This document shows, in pieces, positions 5,291 to 51,440 of a stretch of 64,000 nucleotides of DNA. The notes below the pieces were generated by a model, which saw nothing but the letters and a program-made list of their open reading frames with translations, had not been told where the DNA came from and did not search any database. Each line of letters starts with the position of its first letter. Position 1 is the first letter of the stretch. The stretch comes from Paracoccaceae bacterium. Its GTDB lineage: Bacteria; Pseudomonadota; Alphaproteobacteria; Rhodobacterales; Rhodobacteraceae. The stretch is taken from contig JANQRE010000007.1 of NCBI GenBank assembly GCA_028284705.1, positions 1 through 64,000 of the forward strand, in the 5' to 3' direction. A program made the translations under genes and the position numbers.

Positions 5291-5450
5291 ATGACCGGTA
5301 CTCATGAGCGCAATACAGGGCCGATGCGCGCAAGTCCGCGGTGCGGAGCAAAGACGCGTCGCGGCACGCCGTGCCAAGCACCCGCCGTGGCCGGAAAGAA
5401 GCGCTGCCGGATGCATGGTGGCGCAGCCGGATCAGGCGCCCCTAGCCTTC
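5291..5450 (+). pseudogene. Truncated HGG-motif (phage-associated) protein
   Basis: The N-terminus CGAKTRRGTPCQAPAVAGKK followed by RCRMHGGAAGSGAP is the hallmark of a small family often found in prophage-like islands. It carries four Cys/His positions (CG..PC..C.MHGG) that look like a metal-binding knot. In intact members the glycine motif is followed by an Asn/His-rich stretch and a helical tail. Here similarity stops straight after GSGAP near 5450, and the sequence changes to the end of a tyrosine recombinase gene in another frame. An open frame continues to 5626 by chance. I read this as a deletion junction, so the gene is broken. Confidence 0.6.
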
Positions 5451-5786
5451 ACTTCGCGCAAAACAGCCAGACTCGTTCGAGACTGGCTGGACTGGCGCGG
5501 GCCGCACATCACCTACCTGTTCTGTCCCATATATCAGGGCAAAGCCCTGCAGCGCAGCCTGAGCACGACCTCTGTCAAAAGCCTGATCAAGAGCTCAGCG
5601 AAAAGCGCTGGCTTGGACCCGGATGAGATTGACGGCTTCAGCGGACACTCGCTCAGGGTCGGCGCAGCCCAGGATTTGCTATGCGCGGGCTTTGACACTG
5701 CCGCCATCATGCGGGCTGGTGGTTGGAAATCGGTCAATATTCTCTCGCGTTATCTGGCATACGCCGAGCACAATGTTTGGAGATAA
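5444..5786 (+). pseudogene. Tyrosine recombinase, C-terminal fragment
   Basis: About 114 codons encode the C-terminal catalytic part of a tyrosine recombinase. FSGHSLRVGAAQDL carries the HxxR pair of active-site residues, and GGWKSVNILSRYLAYAE carries the downstream W/H-box position and the nucleophilic tyrosine (SRYL). The N-terminal core-binding domain and the first catalytic arginine are missing, because the reading frame joins the truncated HGG protein at about 5444-5450. A full enzyme would be about 300 residues or more. This is an inactive integrase remnant and marks the island as once mobile. 5787-6022 contains nothing I can identify. Confidence 0.75.
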
Positions 5787-10821: not shown

Positions 10822-11924
10822 TTCGTGACCGTGGCCTCCGTCTTATCGAGGCGTTCAAGGAAGGCTATAAACCGTGCCGCCATGCTCTCAGTTGTGTAGT
10901 CTGTCTCGACCTTCTCCCGACAGCGTTCTGCCATTCGAGTGGCTGCGTCCGGAGCATCCAGGACCGCTGACACTGCAGTAGCCAAAGCTGTTGCGTCATG
11001 TTCAGTGAATGTCGTTCCAGTCGCGCCGTCAACGAAGGCAGCAATCTCGGGCATGTGGTTGAGTGGCTGGTCATGGACGATACAGGGCAGCCCATAACCC
11101 ATTGCGTGGATCAGAGATAGTCCAACCTGTCCGGGATAGATGAACGCCGCGCAGCGGTTGGCGACCTTGGCGATGCGTGCCTCGTCCGTAGTGCCACCAT
11201 GCCAGGTGATGCGGCCAGCCACTCCGAGGTTATCAGCCTGGTCGCGCAGCGCGGCTTCCGTGGTGCCACCGCCTACAACATGAAGATGGGCGCTGTCGAG
11301 TGAGGGATCAGCTAGTGCATCGATAGCCAGATTCAGTTGCGCCTTCTCGGTCAGTCGTCCGATGAAGAGCAGGTTCCGCCCGCGCGCCGTAGGGTCGAAA
11401 GAACGGCGCAGGCGACGTACCTCTGTCAGATCGACACCGTTGTTTAGAGCACCGACGGGGCCGGGATGCGTCCAACCGTCTGCGTTGAAGCGATCAACCT
11501 CCGCGTCGGTATAAAATAATAGCGCATCAGCCAGCCGAGAGAGCTTCATGCGCAGGCGGTGACGGCGCGGATCAGTCGTCGCGCTCCAGTACTGCCCCCA
11601 CCAGATTGTCCGCGCACCCTTCAAACGGGCGCGTACAAGCAACAGGAGCATGCTGAGATTTCGCGGTGCGCCGCAGACAACCAGTGTATCGCCGCATTTA
11701 AAGGGCACAGAGAGAGCACCAGCCTGCCATTCAACGCCACGCATGATATTTCGCATGGGACCGATTGGATGCTCCCACAGAGCGCGGTCACGCGGTTCGG
11801 TCAGAGCGCCCAGGTCAACTGGCGAGTAGTAGACCCGCATGTCGTCGCCGTAATGCGCGGCGAGCCTGCGAAAAAAATCAAGCCGGTAGGCCGGCAGGGC
11901 GGGTTGGACTACACAAATGCGCAC
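10818..11924 (-). CDS. Glycosyltransferase family 4
   Basis: A 368-residue enzyme. MRICVVQPALPAYRLDFFRRLA is the N-terminal strand-helix common to GT4 enzymes acting on polysaccharide repeat units. NLLFIGRLTEKAQLNLAIDAL and AAFIYPGQVGLSLIHAMGYGLPCIVHD give the C-terminal donor domain, where GLS.I.AM.YG replaces the common E.FG...EAMA.G. It is the first intact gene after a 523-bp decayed gap and overlaps the following GT4 by ATGA. It is inferred to act in exopolysaccharide repeat-unit assembly from its place between the pyruvyl transferase and other glycosyltransferases. Confidence 0.87.
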   Translation of the reverse strand: MRICVVQPALPAYRLDFFRRLAAHYGDDMRVYYSPVDLGALTEPRDRALWEHPIGPMRNIMRGVEWQAGALSVPFKCGDTLVVCGAPRNLSMLLLLVRARLKGARTIWWGQYWSATTDPRRHRLRMKLSRLADALLFYTDAEVDRFNADGWTHPGPVGALNNGVDLTEVRRLRRSFDPTARGRNLLFIGRLTEKAQLNLAIDALADPSLDSAHLHVVGGGTTEAALRDQADNLGVAGRITWHGGTTDEARIAKVANRCAAFIYPGQVGLSLIHAMGYGLPCIVHDQPLNHMPEIAAFVDGATGTTFTEHDATALATAVSAVLDAPDAATRMAERCREKVETDYTTESMAARFIAFLERLDKTEATVTK

Positions 11925-11958
11925 TGATGTGGAGCTTTTCTCTTTTGTTTGGCTGCGG

Positions 11959-12391
11959 TCAACGGATCGCTGGCAGTGGTTCGTGGGCTTCCATGGAACT
12001 ACGTCGCGCCGGATCTCGCGCCAATAGTATGTTGAGGCATAAAAACACCGTCAATCCGCGAGCTACATAAAGCGCGCCTGAAGATTGGCCACCGCCTTTT
12101 TGAAGCGTAGGTAAACCTACGAGCGCATTTGGTCCAGGCCGAAGTGTTAGGCGCACCGCATCACGCCCAATGATCCATCGAAACGGTAAAGGGGCTAGCG
12201 ATTGCAATATAGACTAATGTCCCAGCAAACTCCATGGCTGTGGCAGGCGACCAAAAGAAATCGATCTGTTGCGTTTTGTGGCGTGACCACAAGATTGCTG
12301 GCCAGGGAAGGCGCAAACATCCCTGGCCCAATTCCAGTAGTGGGCCGGCGCATTCGATCCAGCGTTCGGAGAAGACGGCCCGGCCTGTCAT
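11959..12391 (-). pseudogene. Frameshifted remnant of an unidentified membrane protein (possible)
   Basis: Two overlapping leftward frames look like one broken coding region. The first (12391 to 12161) ends with WSPATAMEFAGTLVYIAIAS, a hydrophobic stretch. The second (12207 to 11959) continues with PLPFRWIIGRDAVRLTLRPG and ARGLTVFLCLNILLARDPARR. Joining them through one frameshift near 12190 gives a plausible basic membrane protein tail of the kind found in polymerase or acyltransferase genes, but I cannot assign the family. The remainder of the 523-bp gap (11925-12447) shows nothing else. Confidence 0.3.
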
Positions 12392-12447
12392 CGGCGAAAA
12401 CCGCGTATTGGGTTAGATCGTTGAGTCGTTATTGCGCTCTGTTCTAT

Positions 12448-13500
12448 CTAGCGTTTCAATGCATCGACCATCTCGTCAATTGCATCCAAAAGCTTCTGTT
12501 GTGCCGAATGGATCGCACAAATTCCCTTATCATGATCAAAATTCAAAAAGTCGTCTTGAGTAAGTGAAGACCCAACTTCAAAGACACGCTCAGTCATATC
12601 CAAATCCTTGAACAGACCCAAAATCTTTTGGTTTGCCTCAGTGACAAGCGCGAGTGGGGCGGCACCTGCCAGAAATGCAAACAACAGGACGTGAAGACGG
12701 TTTGAGATGGCACCGTTCATGGACTGATACGCTTCCGGACCTCCATGAACTTTCACCGGGCTCTCCAAATCCAATTGTGCCGCTAACCACCGCATGAAAT
12801 CGGCATCTCGATCAACTTGATATATCGGAAAAAGTTTGATTTGCTGGCTTTGCAGCAGAGAGCGTAGAGACTTCAGAATATCTTTTTCTGCTTTCGGATC
12901 ATTGGGATCACGAAATGAAACTGCAACCCTACAAAGTGAATCAGAAGTAGGTGTCCCTGCAGCTTGCGGGATTCTGAGAAACGCCAAATCTGAACCCAGA
13001 AAAAGCTTTCCACGAAACCGCTCGGCTGCTTGGTAGGATGCGCTGTCACGAACCACTCTTCCGAAAAACTGATTGGCAGCGAAACGGTCAAGGAAATTTC
13101 GTTGGAAATTATCAGTTCGCGTCGATATACCAATGGCGCAGATTTTCACTCCAATAAGTCGAAGACCAAAAAAAGAAAGGGCTTTTATTTCCCGTCTTGG
13201 TGGCAATATCTGGCTGACAAGTGCAATAACATCGCCAGGCTTGGTGACGAGCACAACGTTCTCCCTACGACGCAGGCTATTGAAGACCATAGTCAAGAAA
13301 AACGACAGCTTTGTTCCCTCGAAAACTTCTTCCTTCTCAACGCCGAGGCAAGACCAGAAATCAATTGGAATCCCACTCCTTAGAACGCGCAACTTTCCAT
13401 GCCCGCGCAGTTGCGCAAGAAGACGTTCGCTCAAGACTAAATCGCCGAGGTTTTCGAACTGCGTATAAGGGTGATAGTAAAAAACTGTCTCGGGCTTCAT
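12448..13500 (-). CDS. Polysaccharide pyruvyl transferase family protein
   Basis: A 350-residue protein. FYYHPYTQFENLGDLVLSE is the N-terminal motif of the polysaccharide pyruvyl transferase family (NxGD), and VHGGPEAYQSMNGAISNRLHVLLFAFLAGAAPLALV is its conserved C-terminal part (SNRLHVLLFAF, where bacterial enzymes read S.R.H...FA...G.P). Such enzymes move pyruvate from phosphoenolpyruvate to a sugar hydroxyl, giving acidic ketal groups on exopolysaccharides; some relatives are sulfate- or unknown-group transferases. It stands alone between two gaps (11925-12447 and 13501-13940), so its operon partners may have been lost. The region is AT-rich relative to the chromosome. Confidence 0.8.
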   Translation of the reverse strand: MKPETVFYYHPYTQFENLGDLVLSERLLAQLRGHGKLRVLRSGIPIDFWSCLGVEKEEVFEGTKLSFFLTMVFNSLRRRENVVLVTKPGDVIALVSQILPPRREIKALSFFGLRLIGVKICAIGISTRTDNFQRNFLDRFAANQFFGRVVRDSASYQAAERFRGKLFLGSDLAFLRIPQAAGTPTSDSLCRVAVSFRDPNDPKAEKDILKSLRSLLQSQQIKLFPIYQVDRDADFMRWLAAQLDLESPVKVHGGPEAYQSMNGAISNRLHVLLFAFLAGAAPLALVTEANQKILGLFKDLDMTERVFEVGSSLTQDDFLNFDHDKGICAIHSAQQKLLDAIDEMVDALKR

Positions 13501-13839
13501 TATGTCTTCGGCAACGACCGTAGTGTATTACAACTAGGACTACTTCGCATTTTGCGCCACAACCATTGGTTCCAATAGTAATGCATGCCAATCAATGCTG
13601 TGCAGCCACCAAATAGACCTGAAGTCAGCATAAACTCTAAGTTGAAAACACAACTTGTGAACGATGTAGCAACTAAATCGAAAAAGCAGCAAATTAATCA
13701 AAGGATATAATGATCAATGCACTTCTATCATTTAATGCTTGGTGGGATAACTAATATCAAAACGAACAATTATGATGGGGCAACCTCAGAACCGCAGAGA
13801 AAACCCAAATTTGGGTACAGTTAATTGCATCCAATGCAA

Positions 13840-13935
13840 TTAGAGATCGCCATTCTGTGGCTCAAAGTGCCGAAACGGACGTTGGCGAGGTCTACGCCTA
13901 CGACGTGACATAACCCAGAAATCGAACAACTTCAT
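13840..13935 (-). CDS. Very small basic reading frame after wzy (doubtful)
   Basis: A 31-codon frame begins MKLFDFWVMSRRRRRPRQRP 5 bases after the stop of the Wzy-like gene. It is strongly basic (about nine arginines). The short spacing would allow translational coupling, but nothing else supports expression. It might be the decayed start of a lost gene. The surrounding gap 13501-13940 (440 bp) is AT-rich and holds no other frame that I can support. Confidence 0.2.
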   Translation of the reverse strand: MKLFDFWVMSRRRRRPRQRPFRHFEPQNGDL

Positions 13936-13940
13936 GATCG

Positions 13941-15200
13941 CTACAACCCAACCTTGTTGTAAGCAGAGTGAAAGGCAATACCTGAGGGATTGCGAAGAAC
14001 ACGGCGCTCGCGACGTGGTCGAAGAAGCACCATTCCAATTATGAGCCAGACAGCTGAGTCATAGAAAAATGCTTTGTTAATGAAGAGTGGAAGCAACAAA
14101 AAGACGAATGCTAGTCCATATTCCTTGACCAATTTGTAGATCAGAGGCGCAAACAGGAAAACACTTAGAACGATGCCGATGTAGTAAATTAGATTGAATC
14201 CAAACCCAAGATCCTGAGGTGATATACACTGGGCGCAGAAAGCGTCCGAAAGCTGATGCGGTAGCATCATTTCGAGCCAAAGGTTGTCAAGCCATTGCTC
14301 GAGAGCTTCCGCCTTAAAACGGATGGATCCCGCGCCGTCAGAAAGGTCCAGCCGCGTCAAAAAATACTCTTGAATTGAAACTTGCTCGGGGCTCAGAATC
14401 CAGAACAGGCCTGCGAGAACTGTTACTAGGCAAGACAAAGAATAGAGAAGTCGTTTCTTTAAGCTCAAATTCGCGCTTCGCTGCATAGTAACTTCGATAA
14501 GAGATCCAAAAAGAAACGCGGAAACCGCGATCGGAGCCCACGCAGATAGAGTGGCAAGGGTCGAGAGCATTGCAACGAATTCATAAGCCCCGGAAATCTT
14601 CCGGCGTGCAAGCGAACTTATGACTACTGACAAATATACTACGTTTGCATAAGTCCCCGGTTCAACTTGAAGCCCGGAGAAGCGCGCGACTCCGATGAAA
14701 ACACCATTTCGAGCATCGCTCCATGGGAAAACAAGACCGTGAACGTTCAGAAAACCAAATCCAGCGAAGTAGAACGAAACCTCAATCAGAAGCGCAGCGA
14801 CATTCACTATCATGAACCCACGAACAAAGTGAACGACCCAGCCGCTCCGTCGCACAGTCGTCAATTCCGCTAGCAACAATCCTAAGAAGATGCTCAGGGA
14901 GGCCAAAATCGTGAACGGACGCAAGTCAGTCAGATTGATGCCCACGAAAACGAAAGTCGTGATCAGTGTGGCAAGTAAAACCCGCTTGCGTGGAGCGCCA
15001 TACTTAACCAAAATGAGAAAGACGAGGAGAGTACCGCTCAGAATTCTAAGAATCAACGACACCGCTGGCCCGTTTGAGCCAATGTTGAACTCCGTCCTCG
15101 TCAACATCATCGTGACGAGTAACACGCCAAATACACCGGCAACGTCGAAGCTCATGGAATTCTTACTCACCGGCCCGACAGTTACAGGGCTCTGTGTCAA
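13941..15200 (-). CDS. Wzy-like O-antigen/EPS polymerase, multipass membrane protein
   Basis: A 419-residue integral membrane protein with about ten to twelve hydrophobic segments. Early helices include FDVAGVFGVLLVTMML and LILRILSGTLLVFLILV. A long loop around residues 165-180 (VFPWSDARNGVFIGVARFSG, then LQVEPGTYANVV) resembles the periplasmic loop of Wzy/O-antigen ligase-like proteins. It overlaps the next glycosyltransferase start by ATGA. Wzy polymerases share little sequence, so the assignment rests on topology, the GLQVEPGTYA-type motif and its place beside Wzx and glycosyltransferases. It would polymerise flipped repeat units in the periplasm. Confidence 0.72.
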   Translation of the reverse strand: MTQSPVTVGPVSKNSMSFDVAGVFGVLLVTMMLTRTEFNIGSNGPAVSLILRILSGTLLVFLILVKYGAPRKRVLLATLITTFVFVGINLTDLRPFTILASLSIFLGLLLAELTTVRRSGWVVHFVRGFMIVNVAALLIEVSFYFAGFGFLNVHGLVFPWSDARNGVFIGVARFSGLQVEPGTYANVVYLSVVISSLARRKISGAYEFVAMLSTLATLSAWAPIAVSAFLFGSLIEVTMQRSANLSLKKRLLYSLSCLVTVLAGLFWILSPEQVSIQEYFLTRLDLSDGAGSIRFKAEALEQWLDNLWLEMMLPHQLSDAFCAQCISPQDLGFGFNLIYYIGIVLSVFLFAPLIYKLVKEYGLAFVFLLLPLFINKAFFYDSAVWLIIGMVLLRPRRERRVLRNPSGIAFHSAYNKVGL

Positions 15201-42916: not shown

Positions 42917-44224
42917 TTATCTGAAGCTTCCAAGAACCTGATTTGCAGTGAAGGCCAGATCGTAAATCTTCGACTTAAGCGCCGCCTGTGGTGCTGCGGC
43001 CAGATCGGTTATAGGCAGAGGCAGGTCCTCGACCGGCATGCCCGTCAAGAGATCGGCCATCGCTTGGCCGAACAGCGTTCCGGTTGTGATCCCCCGGCCA
43101 TTGTAACCAATGGCGGTCCAGAGGCCCTCATCCAGTTGATGGATGCGGGGCAGATGATCGGGTGTCATCGCGATCTGGCCATGCCATGCTTCTTCAAACG
43201 AGACATCGCCGATGTCAGGAAAGACACGCGCGATTTGCTTGCGTGCCCAGCGTTGGGTCAAACCGCGGTCCTTATTGCCAAATATCCGGCCCATCGTACC
43301 GATCAACAGTCGGTCCCGCACATCGCGACGATAATTGAACATGATCGGCCCGGTGTCCCACAACCCCTGTCTCTCGGGCAGGATATGCCCTGCCTCTGGT
43401 CCCATCGGCGTGGTCGCGAATTGTAAGTAGTGGATCATCGTGAATACGCTTTTGAGGCCAGGCCAAAGCGTATCAGTGTAAGCGTTGGTGCCGAGCACCA
43501 CTGTATTGGCCGTCATCGCGCCCTTGTCGGTTGTGACCCGCCAGATGCCGTCTTCACGAGCGAGCCTTGAGACATGCACCCCGGTGCTGATCTCCGCACC
43601 TGCGCCCAGTGCTGCGCGTGCTAGCCCGCGACAATATCCCATCGGGTTAATCGTTCCGGCCCGGTGATCCAGCAAGCCGCCATAGAACGCGTTTGAGCCG
43701 ACAAGGCCTGCCACATCCTCTCGGCTTATCAAATCGACAGGCTCGCCCATCCGCTGCCATTCCGCATGACGTTCCTTCAGGTCCTGAAACCCCGATGGCG
43801 AATGGGCGGCGTGGACCGTTCCGGTTCTTGTCGCCTCGCACCGAATCTGATGCTTCTCAATGAGATCGAACACCGTTCGGGGGCCGTTGCAGAATCGGTC
43901 CAGAAAGCGAGGCCCATAGGTCTTTCCAAGTTTGGCCCGGACCTTGGCTGGCGGCAACCAGAGCGCGGCATTGACCAGACCGACATTGCGGCCCGACCCG
44001 CCAAAGCCGATATGCTCGGCCTCAAGCACTTGCGCAGATAGGCCGTTCTCTGCGCAATGTAATGCTGTGGACAATCCCGTGAACCCGCCGCCAACGATGG
44101 CGACATCCACGTGTCGATCCGGCACGAAGGACGCGTTGTGGTCGGGCTCTTCTGCGGTCGCATCCCAAAGTGATATCGGATTGTTTCGGGTCATTGGAGC
44201 AGGGCGGACGGGGAGATTTTGCAT
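42917..44224 (-). CDS. FAD-dependent amine/amino-acid oxidoreductase (DadA/PuuB-like)
   Basis: A 435-residue flavoprotein of the DAO family. VDVAIVGGGFTGLSTALHCAENG (residues 39-61) is the Rossmann FAD site, and HIGFGGSGRNVGLVNAALWLP matches the gamma-glutamylputrescine oxidase-like subgroup (GAS.RN.G). C-terminal IGYNGRGITTGTLFGQAMAD closes the FAD site. ATG 44224 is used; ATG 44194 is possible. It probably oxidises a primary or secondary amine or an amino acid, producing an imine and passing electrons to oxygen or a carrier. It is divergent from the rhodanese gene, with the shared operator at 44275-44293 between them, linking it to the IclR-controlled island. Substrate unknown. Confidence 0.87.
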   Translation of the reverse strand: MQNLPVRPAPMTRNNPISLWDATAEEPDHNASFVPDRHVDVAIVGGGFTGLSTALHCAENGLSAQVLEAEHIGFGGSGRNVGLVNAALWLPPAKVRAKLGKTYGPRFLDRFCNGPRTVFDLIEKHQIRCEATRTGTVHAAHSPSGFQDLKERHAEWQRMGEPVDLISREDVAGLVGSNAFYGGLLDHRAGTINPMGYCRGLARAALGAGAEISTGVHVSRLAREDGIWRVTTDKGAMTANTVVLGTNAYTDTLWPGLKSVFTMIHYLQFATTPMGPEAGHILPERQGLWDTGPIMFNYRRDVRDRLLIGTMGRIFGNKDRGLTQRWARKQIARVFPDIGDVSFEEAWHGQIAMTPDHLPRIHQLDEGLWTAIGYNGRGITTGTLFGQAMADLLTGMPVEDLPLPITDLAAAPQAALKSKIYDLAFTANQVLGSFR

Positions 44225-44274
44225 GCGACGCGAGCTTGCGAGGAATTCTTGATTGTGTCAATATATTGAAAGAC

Positions 44275-44293
44275 TGTTCCGTATATAAGAACA
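44275..44293. promoter_or_regulatory. Candidate IclR operator, FAD oxidase/rhodanese intergenic region
   Basis: TGTTCCGTATATAAGAACA has 5-bp inverted arms (TGTTC/GAACA). It matches the element at 51241-51259 in 15 of 19 positions, with the shared form TGTnCnGTATATnAGnACA. It lies between two divergent genes and directly abuts the first possible rhodanese start codon. An IclR gene lies 430 bp away, and these regulators bind such near-palindromes. Binding is inferred. Confidence 0.6.
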
Positions 44294-44719
44294 ATGGAGA
44301 TGGTGTTGGCGAGCCTCAGAAAACCCTCATCTCAGATGGTCGCAGAAGCACGCGACCGCATTGAAGAGATCGAAACAGCCGATCTCATTGCGATGGTTGA
44401 AGACCCAAATGTGGTCATCGTGGACATTCGCGATATCCGCGAGCGGCAACGATCAGGCTACATACCCGGCAGCGTTCACGCGCCACGCGGCATGGTGGAG
44501 TTTTGGGTCGACCCCGAGAGCCCGTATTACAAAGAAGTCTTTGGACAGAATAAGAAGTACATCTTTCATTGTGCCAGCGGGTGGCGGTCTGCTCTGACAG
44601 TTGCGACGCTACAGGACATGGGATTTGAAGCGGCTCATCTGCGTGAAGGCTTCTCCACCTGGGCTACGCAGGGTGGTCCGGTTGAGTTGCCGGATCAGAA
44701 AGACGCGCCCAAAGGTTGA
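44294..44719 (+). CDS. Rhodanese-like sulfurtransferase
   Basis: A 141-residue single-domain rhodanese. VVIVDIRDIRERQRSGYIPG and SVHAPRGMVEFW are the CH2A/B regions. YIFHCASGWRSALTVATLQD (Cys93 in the active-site loop CASGWRS) is the catalytic site, and the GF.TWA..GGPV end is typical. It would carry a persulfide sulfur on Cys93. Alternative starts are 44300 and 44336; the first ATG touches the operator, so a later one is quite possible. It converges on the iclR gene with 2 bp between stops. Context (IclR, molybdoenzyme, amino-acid transporter) suggests sulfur handling in the same pathway. Confidence 0.9.
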   Translation: MEMVLASLRKPSSQMVAEARDRIEEIETADLIAMVEDPNVVIVDIRDIRERQRSGYIPGSVHAPRGMVEFWVDPESPYYKEVFGQNKKYIFHCASGWRSALTVATLQDMGFEAAHLREGFSTWATQGGPVELPDQKDAPKG

Positions 44720-44721
44720 GC

Positions 44722-45486
44722 TTACAACCTTGCGAGAGCCTGTGAGACCGATTGGGCGGCGAGCTGGACCAGGGTGCCATAGCGCTCAACGTCACCCGCA
44801 TTCAGATTGACGTCTGGGACTGAAATCCCAAGCGCTCCGATAACCTCGCCATCGGGGAGCAGAATAGCTGCACCAAGACTATGAATATTGACGCGGAACT
44901 CACCTGAATCGATTGCATATCCGCGCAGGCGGGTCGCTTCCATATCCTTGTCCAACACTGCAGCCTCCGTGATGGTCTGATCGGTAAAGGCCTCAAGTCG
45001 ACCGATCATGGCTTCGCGCAATTGGCTGTAGTTTGCAGCAAGGATTGCCTTGCCGGTGCCAACGCAATGAAGCGGCGCGGTTCCACCGATAGGGTTCCAG
45101 GATCGTATCGGCTGGAGGCTTTCGACTTTGTCGATATAGACGACCCGCAGACCGTCTCGAACCGCGAGGTAAATCGTCTCTTTGGTTTCCTGCGACAGGT
45201 GGTTCATCATTGGCTCGGCCGCAGAGCGCAGGTTCATGTTCTCAACCACCGAACGTCCGACCTGCCAGGTCTTCAACGTGGCGCTGTAGGTTTTGTCCGG
45301 CTCGTGACGCACATATCCCAGAACCGAGAGGGTTTTTAGCAAACGGAACGTATTTGACTTGGTCAGCCCCAGTTGCCGTGAAAGGTCCGAGACGCCGACG
45401 CTGCCGTTTGCTGCGGTAAGCGCCTCAAGGATCATGAGCCCCTTGGAGAGGGTTGAATCGACGCGCGGTTCAGTGTCGTTGCTCAT
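44722..45486 (-). CDS. IclR-family transcriptional regulator
   Basis: A 254-residue regulator. The N-terminal winged helix (residues 10-75) includes TLSKGLMILEALTAANGSVG and the HTH VSDLSRQLGLTKSNTFRLLK. The C-terminal effector-binding domain has LSQETKETIYLAVRDGLRVV, PLHCVGTGKAILA and RLRGYAIDSGEFRVNIHSLG, all family hallmarks. Its start overlaps the molybdoenzyme stop by ATGA, making it the last gene of the transporter operon and probably autoregulated through the operator at 51241-51259. The effector should be the transported compound or a product. IclR proteins may repress or activate. Confidence 0.93.
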   Translation of the reverse strand: MSNDTEPRVDSTLSKGLMILEALTAANGSVGVSDLSRQLGLTKSNTFRLLKTLSVLGYVRHEPDKTYSATLKTWQVGRSVVENMNLRSAAEPMMNHLSQETKETIYLAVRDGLRVVYIDKVESLQPIRSWNPIGGTAPLHCVGTGKAILAANYSQLREAMIGRLEAFTDQTITEAAVLDKDMEATRLRGYAIDSGEFRVNIHSLGAAILLPDGEVIGALGISVPDVNLNAGDVERYGTLVQLAAQSVSQALARL

Positions 45487-47798
45487 GCTTTCCCTTGGGT
45501 CCGGGGGTCTTCCGAAAAGGTCGGAGTGTCATGTGCCGTGATCTTTGGCAAAGGTCCATCGAATTTTTGAACTTCGACCTGAGCAGAATGGGCAGCCGGG
45601 CTTTGGCTGAACTCTGACGTGCGCCTGTCATGGGTCAAAACATTGGGGTTGCCATGGCGGTCCCGATGATCTGGAGCGTCGAAGTCCGGATCATACCAGG
45701 CGCCCGTCCAAAGGAAGACGGCGCCCGGCGAAATGTTCTCAGTGACCAGTGCTCCTGCGAGGCATCGCCCGCGATCGTTGAATAGCTCAACGATATCGCC
45801 ATCAGAGATATCGCGCACCGCGGCGTCGTCTGGATGGATCAATACAGGTTCACGCCCGGCGATTTTGTCTCCAAGACTGACCGCTCCGTTATCGTACTGG
45901 CTGTGCAGGCGCGTGCCCGGCTGACCTGATACAAGGGCCAGCGGGAACTTAGAACTGCTACGGTCACGTGGAGAATTCCACGTGGCGTGCCCTGTACAAT
46001 CTGGGAGGTCAAATCCGGCGACGGTCTCGGAGAACAGCTCAATGCGGCCAGACGGGGTGGGGCGGGGATGTGCGGACGGGTCCGCCCGAAACTCTGACAA
46101 AAAGACCTGCTCAGGATTTGGATCGGGCAACTCGATGATATCACCGGCGAGGAAGTCGTCCCAATCGGGCAATGGCGCGCCGAAGTTTTGTGCAGCCTGT
46201 TGTGTCTTTGCCCAGAGATGGCGCAGCCAATCTTCCTCGCTGCGGTTTTCGGTGAAGGCCTCAAAGGTGCCGAGGCGTTTGGCCAGATCTGTGTAGATGT
46301 CATATTCGACCCGCGCTTCCCCCGGCGCATCGACCGCCTTGGGCATCGGGACCAGGATATTGTCTGATCGCCCGGCCCCGAAATCCGTCCGCTCTTGCGC
46401 TGCGGCGACAGGCAGCACGATATCGGCATGACGCGCCGTCGCAGTCCAGTTGATCTCGTTGACGATCACGGTTTTTGGGCGTTGAAAGGCCCGTCGCAGG
46501 CGGTTGAGATTCTGGTGGTGATGAAATGGATTTCCGCCCGCCCACCAGACCAGTCGTGCGTGCGGAAGCGTTCGGGTCTGCCCATTGTACCGGTAGGTTG
46601 CGCCCGGGGTCAGCAACATGTCCGAGATCATCGCAACGGGGATAAAGTCGTCGACCGGGTTTGCGCCCTGAGGGAGTGCTCCCCATCGAAAAGGCCGCGT
46701 GATGTTGCCGATGTGGCCATTGACGCCATAGCCGATTGTGTAGCCGCCGCCCGGCAAACCGATCTGCCCGAGCATTGATGCAAGTGTTACGCAGGCCCAG
46801 AGCGTTTGTTCTCCCCAATCGGCGCGCTGCAGTCCGGCGGCACATGCAATCATGGTCCGATGTGTGGCCATATCCGCCGCCAGATTAACGATCTCCTCGG
46901 CGTCCACCCCGCTGATCTCCGCCGCCCAGTCGGCGGATTTCGGGGTGCCGTCTGACGCGCCACGCAGATAGGCGGCGACGCGCTCGAACCCTACGGTGTA
47001 GCGGTCGAGAAACTCCTGATCGTGAAGCCCGCGTTCCAAAAGAGAATGTGCCAATGCGAGCATGATGGCGGTGTCTGATCCCGGTTTCGGTGCGATCCAT
47101 TTTGCATTTAGACCTTCGCTGACATCGGTGCGCAGCGGGCTCAGGCTCACAAATCGCACACCGTTCTTGGCGCATTGCTCCAGATGTCCCGCCATACGAT
47201 GCTTGGACGCGCCGCCATCGCAGATCTGCGTATTGCGCATCGCCATGCCGCCAAAGAGCACGACAAGCTCGCTGTGCTCTGCAATGACGGACCATCGAGT
47301 GGCCTCGGCAATGTGACGACGGAAATCCCCGCCCACGATATGCGGCATGGCGACGAGTGCGGCATTGTAACTGTAGTTGCCCTCAGATCGCACGAAGCCG
47401 CCGAATGTGTTCAGAAACCGTTTGAGCTGGCTTTGCGCGTGGTGAAATCTGCCAGCACTCGCCCAGCCATAGGAGCCCGCAAATATGGCGTCGTTCCCAT
47501 AGGCCGCTCGGACGCGCCTTAGGTCCGCAGCAATCAGATCAAGCGCCTTCTCCCAAGACACTTCAACATAGGTGTCCCGCCCGCGTTCGGTGTCCTCTCC
47601 GGTCAGCCAGCCCTTGCGGATTGCTGGACGCAAAACGCGGGCGCGTCCGGTCAAACCGCCCACCATATTGTCGTTGAGCGGCGACGGGTCGGGATCGCTG
47701 GAATGGCTCCGCACAGCCGCAATCTGACCGCCTCTCGTGTGCACGACGCCGATGCCCCAATGTGATGAGGTCAGGGTCTTCGTGATCTCAGAGGTCAT
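45483..47798 (-). CDS. Cytoplasmic molybdopterin S-/N-oxide reductase (BisC/TMAO reductase-like)
   Basis: A 771-residue DMSO-reductase-family enzyme. It starts SSHWGIGVV without a Tat signal and has no cysteine in the first 80 residues, so it lacks an N-terminal iron-sulfur cluster. AGSYGWASAGRFHHAQSQLK includes Ser114, the expected molybdenum ligand of biotin-sulfoxide/DMSO/TMAO reductases. NEINWTATARHADIVLPVAA and NPNVLTHDRRTSEFSQ complete the bis-MGD site. The family reduces sulfoxides (biotin or methionine sulfoxide) or amine N-oxides. Linkage to an amino-acid ABC transporter suggests a substrate such as methionine sulfoxide, an inference. It is separated by 97 bp from the permease gene upstream. 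Confidence 0.9.
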   Translation of the reverse strand: MTSEITKTLTSSHWGIGVVHTRGGQIAAVRSHSSDPDPSPLNDNMVGGLTGRARVLRPAIRKGWLTGEDTERGRDTYVEVSWEKALDLIAADLRRVRAAYGNDAIFAGSYGWASAGRFHHAQSQLKRFLNTFGGFVRSEGNYSYNAALVAMPHIVGGDFRRHIAEATRWSVIAEHSELVVLFGGMAMRNTQICDGGASKHRMAGHLEQCAKNGVRFVSLSPLRTDVSEGLNAKWIAPKPGSDTAIMLALAHSLLERGLHDQEFLDRYTVGFERVAAYLRGASDGTPKSADWAAEISGVDAEEIVNLAADMATHRTMIACAAGLQRADWGEQTLWACVTLASMLGQIGLPGGGYTIGYGVNGHIGNITRPFRWGALPQGANPVDDFIPVAMISDMLLTPGATYRYNGQTRTLPHARLVWWAGGNPFHHHQNLNRLRRAFQRPKTVIVNEINWTATARHADIVLPVAAAQERTDFGAGRSDNILVPMPKAVDAPGEARVEYDIYTDLAKRLGTFEAFTENRSEEDWLRHLWAKTQQAAQNFGAPLPDWDDFLAGDIIELPDPNPEQVFLSEFRADPSAHPRPTPSGRIELFSETVAGFDLPDCTGHATWNSPRDRSSSKFPLALVSGQPGTRLHSQYDNGAVSLGDKIAGREPVLIHPDDAAVRDISDGDIVELFNDRGRCLAGALVTENISPGAVFLWTGAWYDPDFDAPDHRDRHGNPNVLTHDRRTSEFSQSPAAHSAQVEVQKFDGPLPKITAHDTPTFSEDPRTQGKA

Positions 47799-47895
47799 CT
47801 TTGTTTCGGCATCCGAAAGTCATATTCTGATAACTGGCATAGTCGCTTTGGGCTGTCATCGGGATTTTTTGATCGCGTTGCAGGTGATGTCTTGA

Positions 47896-48963
47896 TCAAT
47901 GCTCTTCCTGACGCATCCGGTCCTTGAGGTATTCGCCATAGCGACCCAGCGATGTGATGAACGCCCAGTAGATGAATGCCACGAACAGATAGGTTTCCAT
48001 ATAATAGGCCACCCAGTCGCCGGTTCCGAACGCTGCGGAGGCTGATGCAAGCAGATCGAAGAACCCGATGATGATCACAACCGCCGTCTCCTTGAAGGTC
48101 ACGACGACCATATTGATCGTGGCGGGTAGGGCATGGCGAAACACTTGCGGCAGGATAATCGCGATCAGGATTTGCCACTTTCCAAGCCCAAGCGCGCGTC
48201 CGGCCTCATATTGGCCATCCGGAATGGCCTGAAATCCGCCACGAAAAACCTCCGCCTGGTAGCAAGCAAAAAACAGCGCGAAGGCAATGATGACTCGCCA
48301 GATCTTGTCGCCTTGAAGCCAGTCCGGCAACAGGATTGGCAGCACCACCGCTGCGGTGAACAGCGTTGTCAGCAACGGCAGGGATCGAATGAAATCGATG
48401 ATCAGGGTCGCGACCAATCGCAAAAGCGGCAAACGCGAGCGCCGCATCAGCGCCAGTCCCAGACCCATCGGCATGCCAAGAAGGACGACCGAGGAGAATA
48501 GGAACAGAACCAGAGACAAGCCACCCCACTTGTCAGTGGTAACCTGCGGAAGGCCCAGGATGCTGCCTTCCATCAACAGGTAATAGGCCGCAAAGCCGGA
48601 CACCCAGGTGGCCGTGATGCGGGTTGCGGTCCAAAACCAAGGGATGCAAGACAGCACAACTGTGCCGATGATTGCCGCAGCCGCCAACGTCGAACGCCAG
48701 TGCTCGTCGTAAGGGTAGAGACCGAACAGGATCAACCGGTGGCGGGCATCAATGACCGACCAGCAGGCACCGGCATTGGCCTCTTTGCAAAGTGCGACAT
48801 CCTCGGCGCGAAATACTGCGCGCAACAAAGCCCAATCCAACGCGATCCATGCCAGCCAGGCCAAAATCAGACCCACACCGATGGTCAGAGCCGTATCAAG
48901 CGGCGTGGCAAAGGCGCGGCGTTGCCAGTCCGTGAGCCAGGTCTTGGTCGCGGCGCCAGTCAT
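47896..48963 (-). CDS. Amino-acid ABC transporter permease (AapM-like)
   Basis: A 355-residue inner-membrane permease with an N-terminal helix (ALTIGVGLILAWLAWIALDW), a cysteine-containing periplasmic loop (LCKEANAGACWSVIDARHRL), two further helices, then the core permease domain from about residue 165. The coupling loop reads EVFRGGFQAIPDGQYEAGRALGLGKWQ, the EAA motif of His/Glu/Gln-type permeases. This architecture (long extra N-terminal part) is that of AapM. It overlaps the AapQ-like gene by ATGA. It would pair with AapQ and an ATPase; no ATPase is encoded in the cluster. Confidence 0.92.
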   Translation of the reverse strand: MTGAATKTWLTDWQRRAFATPLDTALTIGVGLILAWLAWIALDWALLRAVFRAEDVALCKEANAGACWSVIDARHRLILFGLYPYDEHWRSTLAAAAIIGTVVLSCIPWFWTATRITATWVSGFAAYYLLMEGSILGLPQVTTDKWGGLSLVLFLFSSVVLLGMPMGLGLALMRRSRLPLLRLVATLIIDFIRSLPLLTTLFTAAVVLPILLPDWLQGDKIWRVIIAFALFFACYQAEVFRGGFQAIPDGQYEAGRALGLGKWQILIAIILPQVFRHALPATINMVVVTFKETAVVIIIGFFDLLASASAAFGTGDWVAYYMETYLFVAFIYWAFITSLGRYGEYLKDRMRQEEH

Positions 48964-50099
48964 GATCCGTAGCCCTTCAGAGCAAGTCGGGCGTTCAGTA
49001 GAGTGACGAACTGTGCAACCGCAAAGTTCACGGCCAGAAAGCCGCCCATCAGGATAGCAATCAGTTCAAGGGTCTGGCCCGACTGGGTGATCGAGGTCGA
49101 CACAATGTAAAACAAGTCGGAAAAACCGATTGCGACACCCACGGTGGTGGCTTTCATCGTGAAAATCCATTGATTGCCCAGGGGCGGAATCATCGACCTC
49201 AGCGCCATGGGCATTTTGATGGTCCACCAGATGCCGAAGCGGCCCAGCCCAAGGCTTTCCCCGGCTTCGGTCAGTCCCTTGGGCACCTCATCCAGCCCGC
49301 CGCGAACGACCTCTCCGATATAGGCTGCACTATAGAGAACGATCCCAACGATCATGGCGACGAGTTCAACTGAAAGTGTCAGCCCTTCGCGAAACCTGAG
49401 GCCCTTGAGATAGGGAATTGATATCGCGCTACTGCCCTCGGGTGTGAAGATCAGGACCGCGAGGCCGGTCATAGCAACCACCCCGACCAACCAAAGCGCG
49501 AGCGCCTTCAAGATGCTGATGCCGGAGCGGCTCAAAACCACGCCCAAGGCGAGGCAGGCCACCACGATCGCTGCGACAGACCATAGTGGGAGCGTCAAAA
49601 TCGGAACCATTATTCCGCGGTTGGACATGAAAATCATGTCGCCGATGGAGATGGCCTGCTTTGGACCGGGAAAATGGATCAGGATCGAATAAAGAAAGAC
49701 AATTTGCAGGATCAGGGGGATATTCCGGAAAATCTGGACGTAAACGCTTGATATGGTTTTTAGACCCGGGTTGGCGCTGTCGCGCATTGTGCCGATGATA
49801 AATCCCAGGATGGTCGCAAAGAAAATCGATATGAAACCGACAAACAGCGTGTTGAGAAATCCGATCAGAAGCGTCTTGCGATAGGTGTCGTCAATGCTTC
49901 GTTCGATCAGGGAGAAGGAATAGCTCCAGCCCGTATCGCGCTCCAGAAAACTGAAACCCGAGGTAATCCCGAGCTCTGCCAGATTGATGCGTGCACTGAA
50001 ATAGGCGCTCAGAACAACCACAACCAATACCAGGAGAACGCAGATCTGAAGCGCGATCTCCCCGGTCGTCATGCGTCTGAAGTCACGCCATCCGAGCAT
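48960..50099 (-). CDS. Amino-acid ABC transporter permease (AapQ-like)
   Basis: A 379-residue permease. A first helix (IALQICVLLVLVVVVLSAYF) and a periplasmic stretch SGFSFLERDTGWSY characterise AapQ/YhdX. The core has FVGFISIFFATILGFIIGTMRD, IFRNIPLILQIVFLY, and the EAA loop GEVVRGGLDEVPKGLTEAGESLGLG. It is separated from the binding-protein gene by 69 bp carrying a strong hairpin, and is coupled to the AapM-like gene. Transports polar or general L-amino acids in characterised relatives. Confidence 0.92.
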   Translation of the reverse strand: MLGWRDFRRMTTGEIALQICVLLVLVVVVLSAYFSARINLAELGITSGFSFLERDTGWSYSFSLIERSIDDTYRKTLLIGFLNTLFVGFISIFFATILGFIIGTMRDSANPGLKTISSVYVQIFRNIPLILQIVFLYSILIHFPGPKQAISIGDMIFMSNRGIMVPILTLPLWSVAAIVVACLALGVVLSRSGISILKALALWLVGVVAMTGLAVLIFTPEGSSAISIPYLKGLRFREGLTLSVELVAMIVGIVLYSAAYIGEVVRGGLDEVPKGLTEAGESLGLGRFGIWWTIKMPMALRSMIPPLGNQWIFTMKATTVGVAIGFSDLFYIVSTSITQSGQTLELIAILMGGFLAVNFAVAQFVTLLNARLALKGYGS

Positions 50100-50118
50100 C
50101 TTTGACCCTTGTTACGAA

Positions 50119-50152
50119 CGAGGGCCGCTCCGACAGTGCGGAGTAGCCCTCG
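50119..50152 (-). terminator. Hairpin between binding-protein and permease genes
   Basis: CGAGGGC (50119-50125) pairs with GCCCTCG (50146-50152), and an inner CTCCG/CGGAG stem closes a 6-base loop. It lies 17 bp after the binding-protein stop. There is no T-run, so it probably protects the upstream mRNA or attenuates, giving more binding protein than permease. Confidence 0.65.
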
Positions 50153-50168
50153 GTGCGGTCAAGCGGTG

Positions 50169-51209
50169 TTAGTCGAGGATAGGCGTGTAGAGAACGCCGC
50201 CATTGCTCCACAGATTGTTCAGGCCACGCTCAAGCTTATAGGGCGATCCTTCACCGAGATTGCGATCATAGATCTCCGCGAAGTTGCCCATCGCGGCGAT
50301 CATCTCACGCGCCCAGGTTTCGCGCAGGCCCAGACGTTCGCCCATGCCGGGATTGACGCCAAGCAAACGCGCCACCGTCGGATTTGGAGGATTGGCCGCC
50401 ATCTCGGCGACATTGGCTTGCGTGACACCTTCTTCCTCGGCCTTGAGCAGCGCGGCGAGCATCCAGTTGACGACGTCCACCCATTCGTCGTCGCCCTGCC
50501 GCATGGCAGCAGAGATCGGTTCCGCGGACAGCTTGTCTTCGAGGATCACATGGTCGCCGGCGTCTTCAAACTGATTGGCCAGAAGTACGGCGATGGATGG
50601 GCCCCAGGCGGCATACGCGTCGCAGCGGCCGGACTTGTAAGCGCCTATGACTTCGGCCGTTTTTTCGAAGCTGACCATGGTATGCTCGACATTCTCGGAT
50701 TTCAGGTGGTCGGCCACGATCCGCTCAATCGTCGTACCAGCCGCGACGCAAATGGTGCCGCCATCAAGATCGGTCGCGGTTTGTGCGCCGAGGTCCTTGC
50801 GCACCATCAGTTGCGCGCCACCAAAGAAATAGGGGTTTGAAAATTGCAGACCCAGTTCCGTATCACGGCCCATGGTCCAGCCCGTGGCCTTGATTACGAC
50901 ATCCACATCCCCTGATTGCAGGGCAGGAAAGCGCTGCGCCCAGCTCAGCGGCACTATCTGGTTTTTGTCTTTGTCGCCCAGGATCGCCACGGTCAATGCG
51001 CGGCAAAGATCGATATCCAGACCCTTCCACTCGTTCTTGTCGTTCACTTCAACAAAACCAAAATAGCTGCCGTTGTGACCGGAGCACAAAAGCGTTCCTC
51101 GTTCTTGAACGGCCTTGAGCGTCGGGCTCTCCGCAAGCGCGGCGCCTCCTGACACTGACAGGCCCGTGACTGCGACCGCCGCCGACAGCGCGCTGCGAAG
51201 TATCGACAT
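50169..51209 (-). CDS. Amino-acid ABC transporter periplasmic binding protein (AapJ-like)
   Basis: A 346-residue solute-binding protein of family 3. A signal peptide (SALSAAVAVTGLSVSGGAALA, cut before ESP) precedes the start TLKAVQERGTLLCSGHNGSY. EWKGLDIDLCRALTVAILGD and DVVIKATGWTMGRDTELGLQF are the AapJ pattern. GTICVAAGTTIERIVADHL and CDAYAAWGPSIAVLLA are C-lobe segments. The nearest known functions are general L-amino-acid binding proteins, but the associated molybdoenzyme hints at a modified amino acid. It is the first gene of the operon; the operator 51241-51259 lies 31 bp upstream of its start. Confidence 0.92.
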   Translation of the reverse strand: MSILRSALSAAVAVTGLSVSGGAALAESPTLKAVQERGTLLCSGHNGSYFGFVEVNDKNEWKGLDIDLCRALTVAILGDKDKNQIVPLSWAQRFPALQSGDVDVVIKATGWTMGRDTELGLQFSNPYFFGGAQLMVRKDLGAQTATDLDGGTICVAAGTTIERIVADHLKSENVEHTMVSFEKTAEVIGAYKSGRCDAYAAWGPSIAVLLANQFEDAGDHVILEDKLSAEPISAAMRQGDDEWVDVVNWMLAALLKAEEEGVTQANVAEMAANPPNPTVARLLGVNPGMGERLGLRETWAREMIAAMGNFAEIYDRNLGEGSPYKLERGLNNLWSNGGVLYTPILD

Positions 51210-51239
51210 GGTATTCTCCCAGATTGTTGCAGAGCATAT

Positions 51240-51260
51240 GTGTGCTGTATATCAGCACAC
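51240..51260. promoter_or_regulatory. Candidate IclR operator upstream of the aapJ-like gene
   Basis: GTGTGCTG (51240-51247) and CAGCACAC (51253-51260) form a perfect 8-bp inverted repeat around TATAT. The inner 19 bases fit the same TGTnCnGTATATnAGnACA form as 44275-44293. It is 30 bp upstream of the binding-protein start. A T-run (51262-51267) follows on the plus strand, so read rightward it could also resemble a terminator. No rightward gene ends here, so an operator is more likely. Confidence 0.6.
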
Positions 51261-51440
51261 GTTTTTTATATATCGAGATTGCCAGCCGAGATATGTTGAG
51301 TCAAGAAATATGCCGGACTGATCCGACGGGGTCTCGCGATCAGAACGGGAAGTGCGGTCTCGGCGCTGTCTTGGTCTACAAGAGCGTTCGCGAGGATGAA
51401 TCTCGTCAAGACGAAAGCTTATGGGTGCGACTTGTGTCGG

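Follow-up and report, generated by a model that had tools for sequence, protein, structure and literature searches.

Which regulator do two look-alike DNA elements in the genome of a Paracoccaceae bacterium serve, and which genes do they bring together? The window analyzed here, a stretch of 64,000 nucleotides (positions 1 to 64,000 of contig JANQRE010000007.1), carries two copies of a 19-bp near-palindrome. One lies between the divergent genes for a flavin adenine dinucleotide (FAD)-dependent oxidase and a rhodanese-domain protein; the other precedes an operon encoding the periplasmic binding protein (SBP) and permeases (PermQ and PermM) of an amino acid type transporter, a BisC-like molybdoenzyme, and a regulator of the IclR family. 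An initial annotation, made from the letters alone, had taken the pair to be binding sites of this regulator and the two transcription units to form one regulon. We find that both elements very probably act as control sites through which a single regulator governs an uptake system together with several sulfur-related enzymes, and we place the probability of a single IclR regulon with double operators at roughly 0.88. The motif, a partner site 21 bp from it, the conservation of both, and their co-occurrence with the IclR gene were computed directly. Support for one regulon comes from the conservation of the site, from the co-occurrence of the double site with an IclR ortholog, and from the fit of the site to a published operator consensus.

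Two strong sites and a partner at a fixed distance

The pattern TGTNCNGTATATNAGNACA matches exactly at 44275-44293 on the + strand (operator 1, in the FAD oxidase/rhodanese intergenic region) and at 51241-51259 on the - strand (operator 2, upstream of the transporter-molybdoenzyme-iclR operon). As annotated, the copies are identical at 15 of 19 positions; they differ at positions 4, 6, 13, and 16, and their inverted arms read TGTTC/GAACA and TGTGCTG/CAGCACA. The end of operator 1 abuts the first ATG in the rhodanese open reading frame (ORF), and the start of the SBP gene lies 31 bp from the end of operator 2. Four window matches with at most three mismatches were found against 0.48 expected, a number reached in none of 100 shuffles, two of the four being there by construction, as the pattern was built from both window sites. 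The test independent of the window pair is the ranking given by a position weight matrix (PWM) trained on relatives only: this placed 51238-51260 (operator 2, 25.2 bits) first and 44272-44294 (operator 1, 24.2 bits) second, and the highest score in 60 shuffled 64-kb windows was 16.6 bits (mean maximum 10.7).

The same element emerged from the relatives without recourse to the window. A de novo motif search by expectation maximization, run from random starts on 37 upstream regions of relatives with the window sequence excluded, returned TTGTGCTGATATATAGAACAAAT. The rhodanese and IclR regions were left out of this training (the rhodanese region is the same intergenic stretch as that of the FAD oxidase), as was L033, a near-duplicate of L032 that was also omitted from strong-site counts and gene tallies; L021/G146 and L025/G130 were counted once each. 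A rerun of the search reached a log-likelihood of 380, compared with 85-98 in 10 shuffled sets, a difference to which shared promoter ancestry contributes by raising the real value. An 8-base framework taken from the window sites, which uses no PWM, was present at 7 or more of its 8 bases in 7 of 7 SBP regions (shuffled mean 0.57; the L037 region, at a contig end, was left out) and in 13 of 15 FAD oxidase regions (shuffled mean 1.23). The site is thus kept before SBP and FAD oxidase orthologs, the conservation that the initial annotation had named as a check.

Most strong sites belong to a pair. A symmetrized 19-bp PWM yielded 29 pairs, all 21 bp apart from center to center (weaker member at least 5 bits), and none at any other distance from 12 to 60, where 0.03 are expected per offset. 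Among 46 strong sites (at least 14 bits), 29 lead a pair and 5 take the weaker place in one; the remaining 12, operator 2 of the window included, lack a partner of at least 5 bits. With an oriented PWM and a second match of at least 9 bits, the offset was 19 in 19 of 38 strong sites, 23 in 4, and 21 in 1, with no second match at other offsets between 7 and 60 (two L024 pairs enter this tally twice); the offsets are mixed because of site orientation. A survey of IclR operators, in the parts available to us, gives the spacing of tandem sites as 18-22 nt, with most at 19-21 (Suvorova and Gelfand 2021, PMC8222616), and the 29 pairs at 21 bp fall within that range.

Within the window, the partner of operator 1 is clear: it lies at 44254-44272 (+ strand) and scores 11.5 bits with the symmetrized PWM and 18.1 bits as the 23-mer 44253-44275 with the relatives-only PWM. 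That of operator 2 (51262-51280, - strand) scores 2.5 bits, under the 5-bit counting cut, and is clearer in relatives; the double-site profile described below nevertheless matches 51241-51278 with an E value of 6.3e-5, the window site itself being part of that profile. A degenerate third operator occupies 47823-47841 (- strand), upstream of the molybdoenzyme gene, with 13.3 bits by the symmetrized PWM, 8.4 bits by the relatives-only oriented PWM (47822-47844), and a partner of 2.3 bits at 47802-47820. It is supported by its position rather than its score, because a match inside an ORF at 59604 scores 13.7 bits; relatives have a double operator of BisC at the corresponding place, and the window copy may be a relic. 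The initial annotation thus had the two strong sites right and missed both the 21-bp partner and the degenerate molybdoenzyme copy. It noticed no third copy in the window, where a third PWM match adjoins operator 1 and a weak one precedes the molybdoenzyme gene; profile searches of the genome found no other copy of comparable strength. Across the 4.04-Mb genome, the pattern with up to two mismatches occurs three times (the reversed-pattern control once), at both operators and at 5523. We dismissed the match at 5523 (two mismatches) as chance: it lies inside ORFs, and its 13.3 bits fall within the shuffled range (maximum 16.6). The surrounding ORF, 5304-5786, resembles by eye a piece of a tyrosine recombinase.

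Inferred promoters and the direction of control

Aligning the upstream regions of relatives allowed candidate promoters to be assigned by eye. That of the rhodanese gene would be TTGCGA-N17-CAATAT at 44236-44264 (+ strand), at the same place and with the same spacing in aligned relatives; that of the FAD oxidase gene, TTGACA-N17-CAAGCT at 44233-44261 (- strand), again judged from aligned relatives; and that of the SBP gene, TTGACT-N18-AATCTC at 51275-51304 (- strand). In the rhodanese rows, TTGC is present in 14 of 17 and CAAYAT in 17 of 17, and the strong site follows after 10 nt (9 nt in L036). The BisC rows have NTGACA in 7 of 10, CAAYAT in 6 of 10, and 10 nt from the inferred -10 to the strong site in 10 of 10, and the SBP rows have TTGACW in 9 of 9, a variable -10, and then about 15 nt to the strong site. 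On the opposite strand, TTGAC occurs in 16 of 16 FAD oxidase rows, 12-13 nt from the strong site. For L039, the site start in this alignment was placed manually and deviates by two bases. The partner site covers the inferred -10 of the rhodanese, BisC, and SBP promoters and the inferred -35 of the FAD oxidase promoter. Read together, the aligned promoters point to repression as the probable mode of control.

We infer from these data that this IclR protein is the binder, that it binds as a tetramer and represses, and that an inducer relieves it. Each window element would form the strong half of a double operator recognized by the protein encoded at 44722-45486. One IclR dimer would sit on the strong 19-bp palindrome, and a second, probably of the same tetramer, on the weaker partner, which lies 21 bp (two helical turns) off and overlaps the core promoter. 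Without inducer, three promoters would be blocked: those of the rhodanese gene, the FAD oxidase gene, and the SBP-PermQ-PermM-BisC-iclR operon. As iclR is itself part of the repressed operon, the regulator would limit its own synthesis. Release of the regulator by a metabolite related to the imported substrate would then turn on import, S/N-oxide reduction, amine oxidation, and sulfur transfer at once.

A variant within the one-regulon proposal keeps the same operators and makes IclR an activator, or has it activate the FAD oxidase gene while repressing the others, as has been proposed for BhcR. BhcR is the nearest named family and has been argued, in the part of that report available to us, to have a dual role (PMC11323563). 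At the FAD oxidase gene, the strong site precedes the inferred -35 and is some 58 bp ahead of the inferred start, a position that would suit an activator too. Before the rhodanese, SBP, and BisC genes, in contrast, the -10 assigned by eye precedes the strong site and is covered by the partner, an arrangement that suits blocking, and we consider activation unlikely. The likeness to BhcR of Paracoccus denitrificans extends to an IclR protein with a palindromic site proposed near its target promoter; the genes regulated, as far as that report could be consulted, are other ones (PMC11323563).

Co-occurrence of the double site with the regulator

Two profiles were used for genome searches: R1, a 23-bp single-site profile from 35 sites, and R2, a 40-bp double-site profile from 32 sites, which was run with stricter filters and with 16 candidates scored per listed genome. 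The profile alignment used 35 of 36 sites, the second of two overlapping L024 sites being left out. The initial annotation had proposed a whole-genome scan in which many unrelated hits would count against it; few were found. With R1, to which both window sites contributed, these two were the only matches at E <= 10 in the source genome among the 150 of 493 first-look candidates that were scored.

Orthologs of the regulator at E <= 1e-70 are present in 17 of 394 family genomes, the source genome included, and at five contig loci, two of which apparently correspond to contigs of G146 and G130. All 23 R2 matches at E <= 1e-4 over the 394 genomes fall in 15 of the 17 IclR-bearing genomes and none in the 377 others, where the best match has an E value of 7.3e-4 (G223). 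At E <= 0.1, R2 matches 62 genomes, 46 of which lack the IclR gene, a number near chance level for 377 genomes. Site and regulator gene are thus conserved together across genomes, with G130 and G027 as exceptions. The conservation expected in related strains is found within the family but not within the genus: none of 20 sampled genus-mates, of which 17 are at least 90% complete, has the IclR ortholog at E <= 1e-60, and the same 20 genomes gave no R1 match of at least 15 bits (best 14.0). Because the ortholog is absent from the sampled genus-mates, the cluster is accessory. Among 18 distinct relative loci of 14-21 kb, the FAD oxidase gene is present in 15, BisC at 58% identity or more in 13, a HyuA/HyuB pair in 12, rhodanese in 11 (plus fragments in L026), and SBP in 8; the named records are Rhodobacter and Sulfitobacter metagenome-assembled genomes (MAGs), a Paracoccaceae MAG, a Rhizobiaceae MAG, and Jhaorihella thermophila.

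In G288 (L109 and L110), the genes of the regulon occupy three separate chromosomal positions with an operator before each, two of the operators unused in training. The site at 2,745,998 (R2 E 7.9e-7) is the rhodanese-FAD oxidase promoter, adjoined by lyase, VOC, dioxygenase, and HyuA/HyuB genes; that at 1,759,785 (E 0.019 with R2, 0.137 with R1) precedes SBP-PermQ-PermM; and IclR and BisC lie at 2.187 Mb with their own site. An IclR-bearing plasmid of Paracoccus seriniphilus, likewise not in training, has a site in the metC-iclR intergenic region (E 2.9e-5, 16.7 bits symmetrized) and one between rhodanese and oxidase genes (E 0.02, 15.7 bits symmetrized). The SC52 plasmid (L119) carries FAD oxidase and rhodanese genes at 11482-13987, no IclR gene in the 25 kb examined, and only HyuB-like fragments; its site scores 7.5 bits symmetrized and 13.3 bits with R2 (E 0.03), near the second Paracoccus site (14.4). 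Operator decay on this plasmid is a possibility.

The sequence of the site fits a published IclR operator consensus. The available portion of the survey cited above gives group 1 operators as the palindrome GKTYCRYW3-4RYGRAMC and places most site centers 20-80 nt before the gene start (PMC8222616). Against this consensus, 35 sites score 13.9 of 17 on average and shuffled sites 7.2; the window sites score 14 and 12 in the better of two orientations, and no site matches all 17. The palindrome type and the tandem arrangement are therefore already described for IclR regulators, and the regulon is the new part. The main text of the survey contains neither "molybd" nor "rhodanese," and its supplementary tables may list the group (PMC8222616). 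In the part of another article consulted (PMC5343134), HmgR is the sole IclR regulator named and "sulfoxide" and "rhodanese" do not appear. Searches of an open-licence library found no description of this regulon.

Several observations weigh against a single regulon with double operators. Operator 2 is practically without a partner, and because the partner overlaps the -10 and -35 hexamers, part of its conservation may be that of promoter sequence; a simple consensus promoter scan found none of the inferred promoters. The 8-base framework appears in only 5 of 15 BisC regions (shuffled mean 1.01), a set that includes two distant paralogs (L034, 38%; L036, 43%), and L036, which lacks PWM support, is among the five. 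The regions before iclR show no general signal (framework in 2 of 18, shuffled mean 1.3). In relatives, iclR mostly sits behind BisC; a site precedes it in L037 (23.0 bits) and L039 (26.2) and, more weakly, in L028 (13.0) and L035 (13.9), and in L034 and L036 it has neither BisC in front nor a site. L025/G130 has IclR (66%) and BisC with no site of at least 9 bits in the 21 kb examined and a best genome-wide match of E 2.36, and the G027 cluster has no double-site match at E <= 0.1, only a single-site R1 match. Most R1 and R2 matches come from genomes whose sites trained the profiles, to which most of the 15 genomes contributed. Finally, of seven off-cluster places examined, two, both in G288, are regulon genes and five are not: three lie beside other IclR genes, G361:C67 near unrelated ORFs, and G220:C23 inside an ORF, with an R1 E value (0.084) better than that of the true G288 transporter site.

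Some of these points suit the view that the sites belong to another regulator and that the IclR gene is a mere neighbor, namely the presence of IclR without a site in L025/G130 and the lack of a site of at least 5 bits in 15 of 19 iclR upstream regions. Yet across 394 genomes the double site goes with the IclR ortholog, it does so over dispersed units too, its sequence fits the IclR family consensus, and weaker matches in the source genome (C5, E 0.16), G223, and G212:C17 adjoin other IclR genes of 26-30% identity; we regard another regulator as very unlikely. Operator 2 taken singly might be an intrinsic terminator or RNA hairpin instead of a protein site, since the + strand at 51238-51262 reads as a 10-bp hairpin stem with a T run behind it. 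This we reject as highly improbable: operator 1 has no terminator-like site, the nearest + strand ORF to the left of operator 2 (50109-50840) is antisense to the SBP gene, and in relatives the palindrome persists in the SBP promoter with other flanks. Chance resemblance or a dispersed repeat, conceivable for a short motif with four window matches at up to three mismatches, is negligible given the conservation at matching promoters in relatives, the fixed 21-bp partner, and the lack of any other comparable copy in the genome scan.

The weaker double-site match in the source genome (G000:C5 21599-21635, L112) adjoins an IclR gene of 30% identity and an ORF resembling an ATP-binding cassette (ABC) ATPase; it is perhaps that paralog's own operator.

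Gene set and possible substrate

Profile matches uphold the annotated gene names at the family level. The FAD-dependent amine oxidase (42917-44224, - strand) belongs to the DAO family and is L-pipecolate-oxidase-like, scoring 435 bits against the L-pipecolate oxidase AmaA model (NF050086) with its cut-off of 600; its start may be 44194 rather than 44224, as many relatives' alignments begin at residue 11. The rhodanese-domain protein is encoded at 44294-44719 (+ strand). The regulator, on the - strand, belongs to the IclR family (HTH_IclR PF09339, 60.9 against a cut-off of 22; IclR_C PF01614, 127.5 against 24), shares the helix-turn-helix and ligand-binding domains of IclR, AllR, KdgR, and PcaR/PcaU/PobR, and reaches none of those families' cut-offs; its best NCBIfam match, BhcR, stands at 167.5 bits against a cut-off of 350. 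In the alignment of the regulator, 32 of 75 columns are invariant in the helix-turn-helix region and 37 of 181 in the rest, which counts in favor of the regulon.

The molybdenum (molybdopterin guanine dinucleotide) enzyme (45483-47798, - strand) matches TIGR00509 (bisC_fam) over nearly its whole length with 889.7 bits, below the curated cut-off of 1017.55, and probably works like the S/N-oxide reductases of that family. PermM (47896-48963) and PermQ (48960-50099), both on the - strand, are polar amino acid type ABC permeases by family-level match, and the SBP (50169-51209, - strand), likewise assigned at family level, is the operon's first gene product. The closest solved relative of the SBP is 4z9n, whose ligand we take to be glutathione. 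Since all five genes from SBP to iclR share a strand, with gaps under 100 bp or overlaps, they likely form one operon. The operon of the transporter genes (47896-51209, SBP and two permeases) contains no ATPase gene, its intergenic gaps being too small.

The regulon looks like one that imports and degrades an amino compound of the sulfoxide type. Further genes occur in relatives; they encode a cystathionine beta-lyase-like enzyme (TIGR01324, above cut-off with 412 bits), a Glyoxalase_3 protein, a persulfide-dioxygenase-like protein (Blh, 357 bits, cut-off 625), and HyuA/HyuB of the hydantoinase/oxoprolinase families. The source genome has no close lyase (best 31%), a dioxygenase of 61% identity elsewhere, and two HyuA-like pieces of 54 and 60% identity (G000:C35 103833-105107 and G000:C22 3-878, one of them at a contig end) that are perhaps one gene split by assembly. 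In G027 (L034 10589-15125), the double site precedes ORFs resembling a multihaem cytochrome, a chaperone, and a dimethyl sulfoxide/trimethylamine N-oxide reductase, named by eye except for the 38% BisC match, as if the reductase had been swapped under the same regulator; because the site precedes such a gene set, an S- or N-oxide as the theme gains support.

The boldest reading, an unlikely one, takes the substrate to be the S-oxide of a cyclic thioether amino acid, such as thioproline S-oxide or chondrine, a seaweed compound (thiomorpholine-3-carboxylate S-oxide). Judged throughout by gene family, the amino acid type transporter would import it, the BisC-like enzyme would reduce the S-oxide, and the pipecolate-oxidase-like enzyme would oxidize the ring amine. 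In relatives, the 5-oxoprolinase-like HyuA/HyuB would open the resulting lactam, the cystathionine beta-lyase-like enzyme would cut the C-S bond, and the persulfide-dioxygenase-like protein and rhodanese would handle the released sulfur, with IclR sensing a product of the route. In the source genome, the route would be shortened or dependent on genes elsewhere. Ergothioneine degradation, considered on account of the relatives' HyuA/HyuB, was not adopted; no ergothionase search was made.

What began as two look-alike elements is now a regulon with good support: it has a likely regulator, double operators that are exactly placed, and a set of genes open to testing. One site links transporter, S/N-oxide reductase, amine oxidase, and sulfur-transfer genes, joined in relatives by lactam- and C-S-cleaving enzymes; this narrows the search for an organosulfur or amine-oxide substrate and offers a reporter for finding the inducer. 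A hint about the substrate may also lie in the Paracoccus seriniphilus plasmid cluster (L120, 7149-19736), where an annotated hypotaurine-pyruvate aminotransferase accompanies VOC, metC, IclR, rhodanese, and FAD oxidase genes, together with HyuA/HyuB, SDR, and propionyl-CoA synthetase genes.

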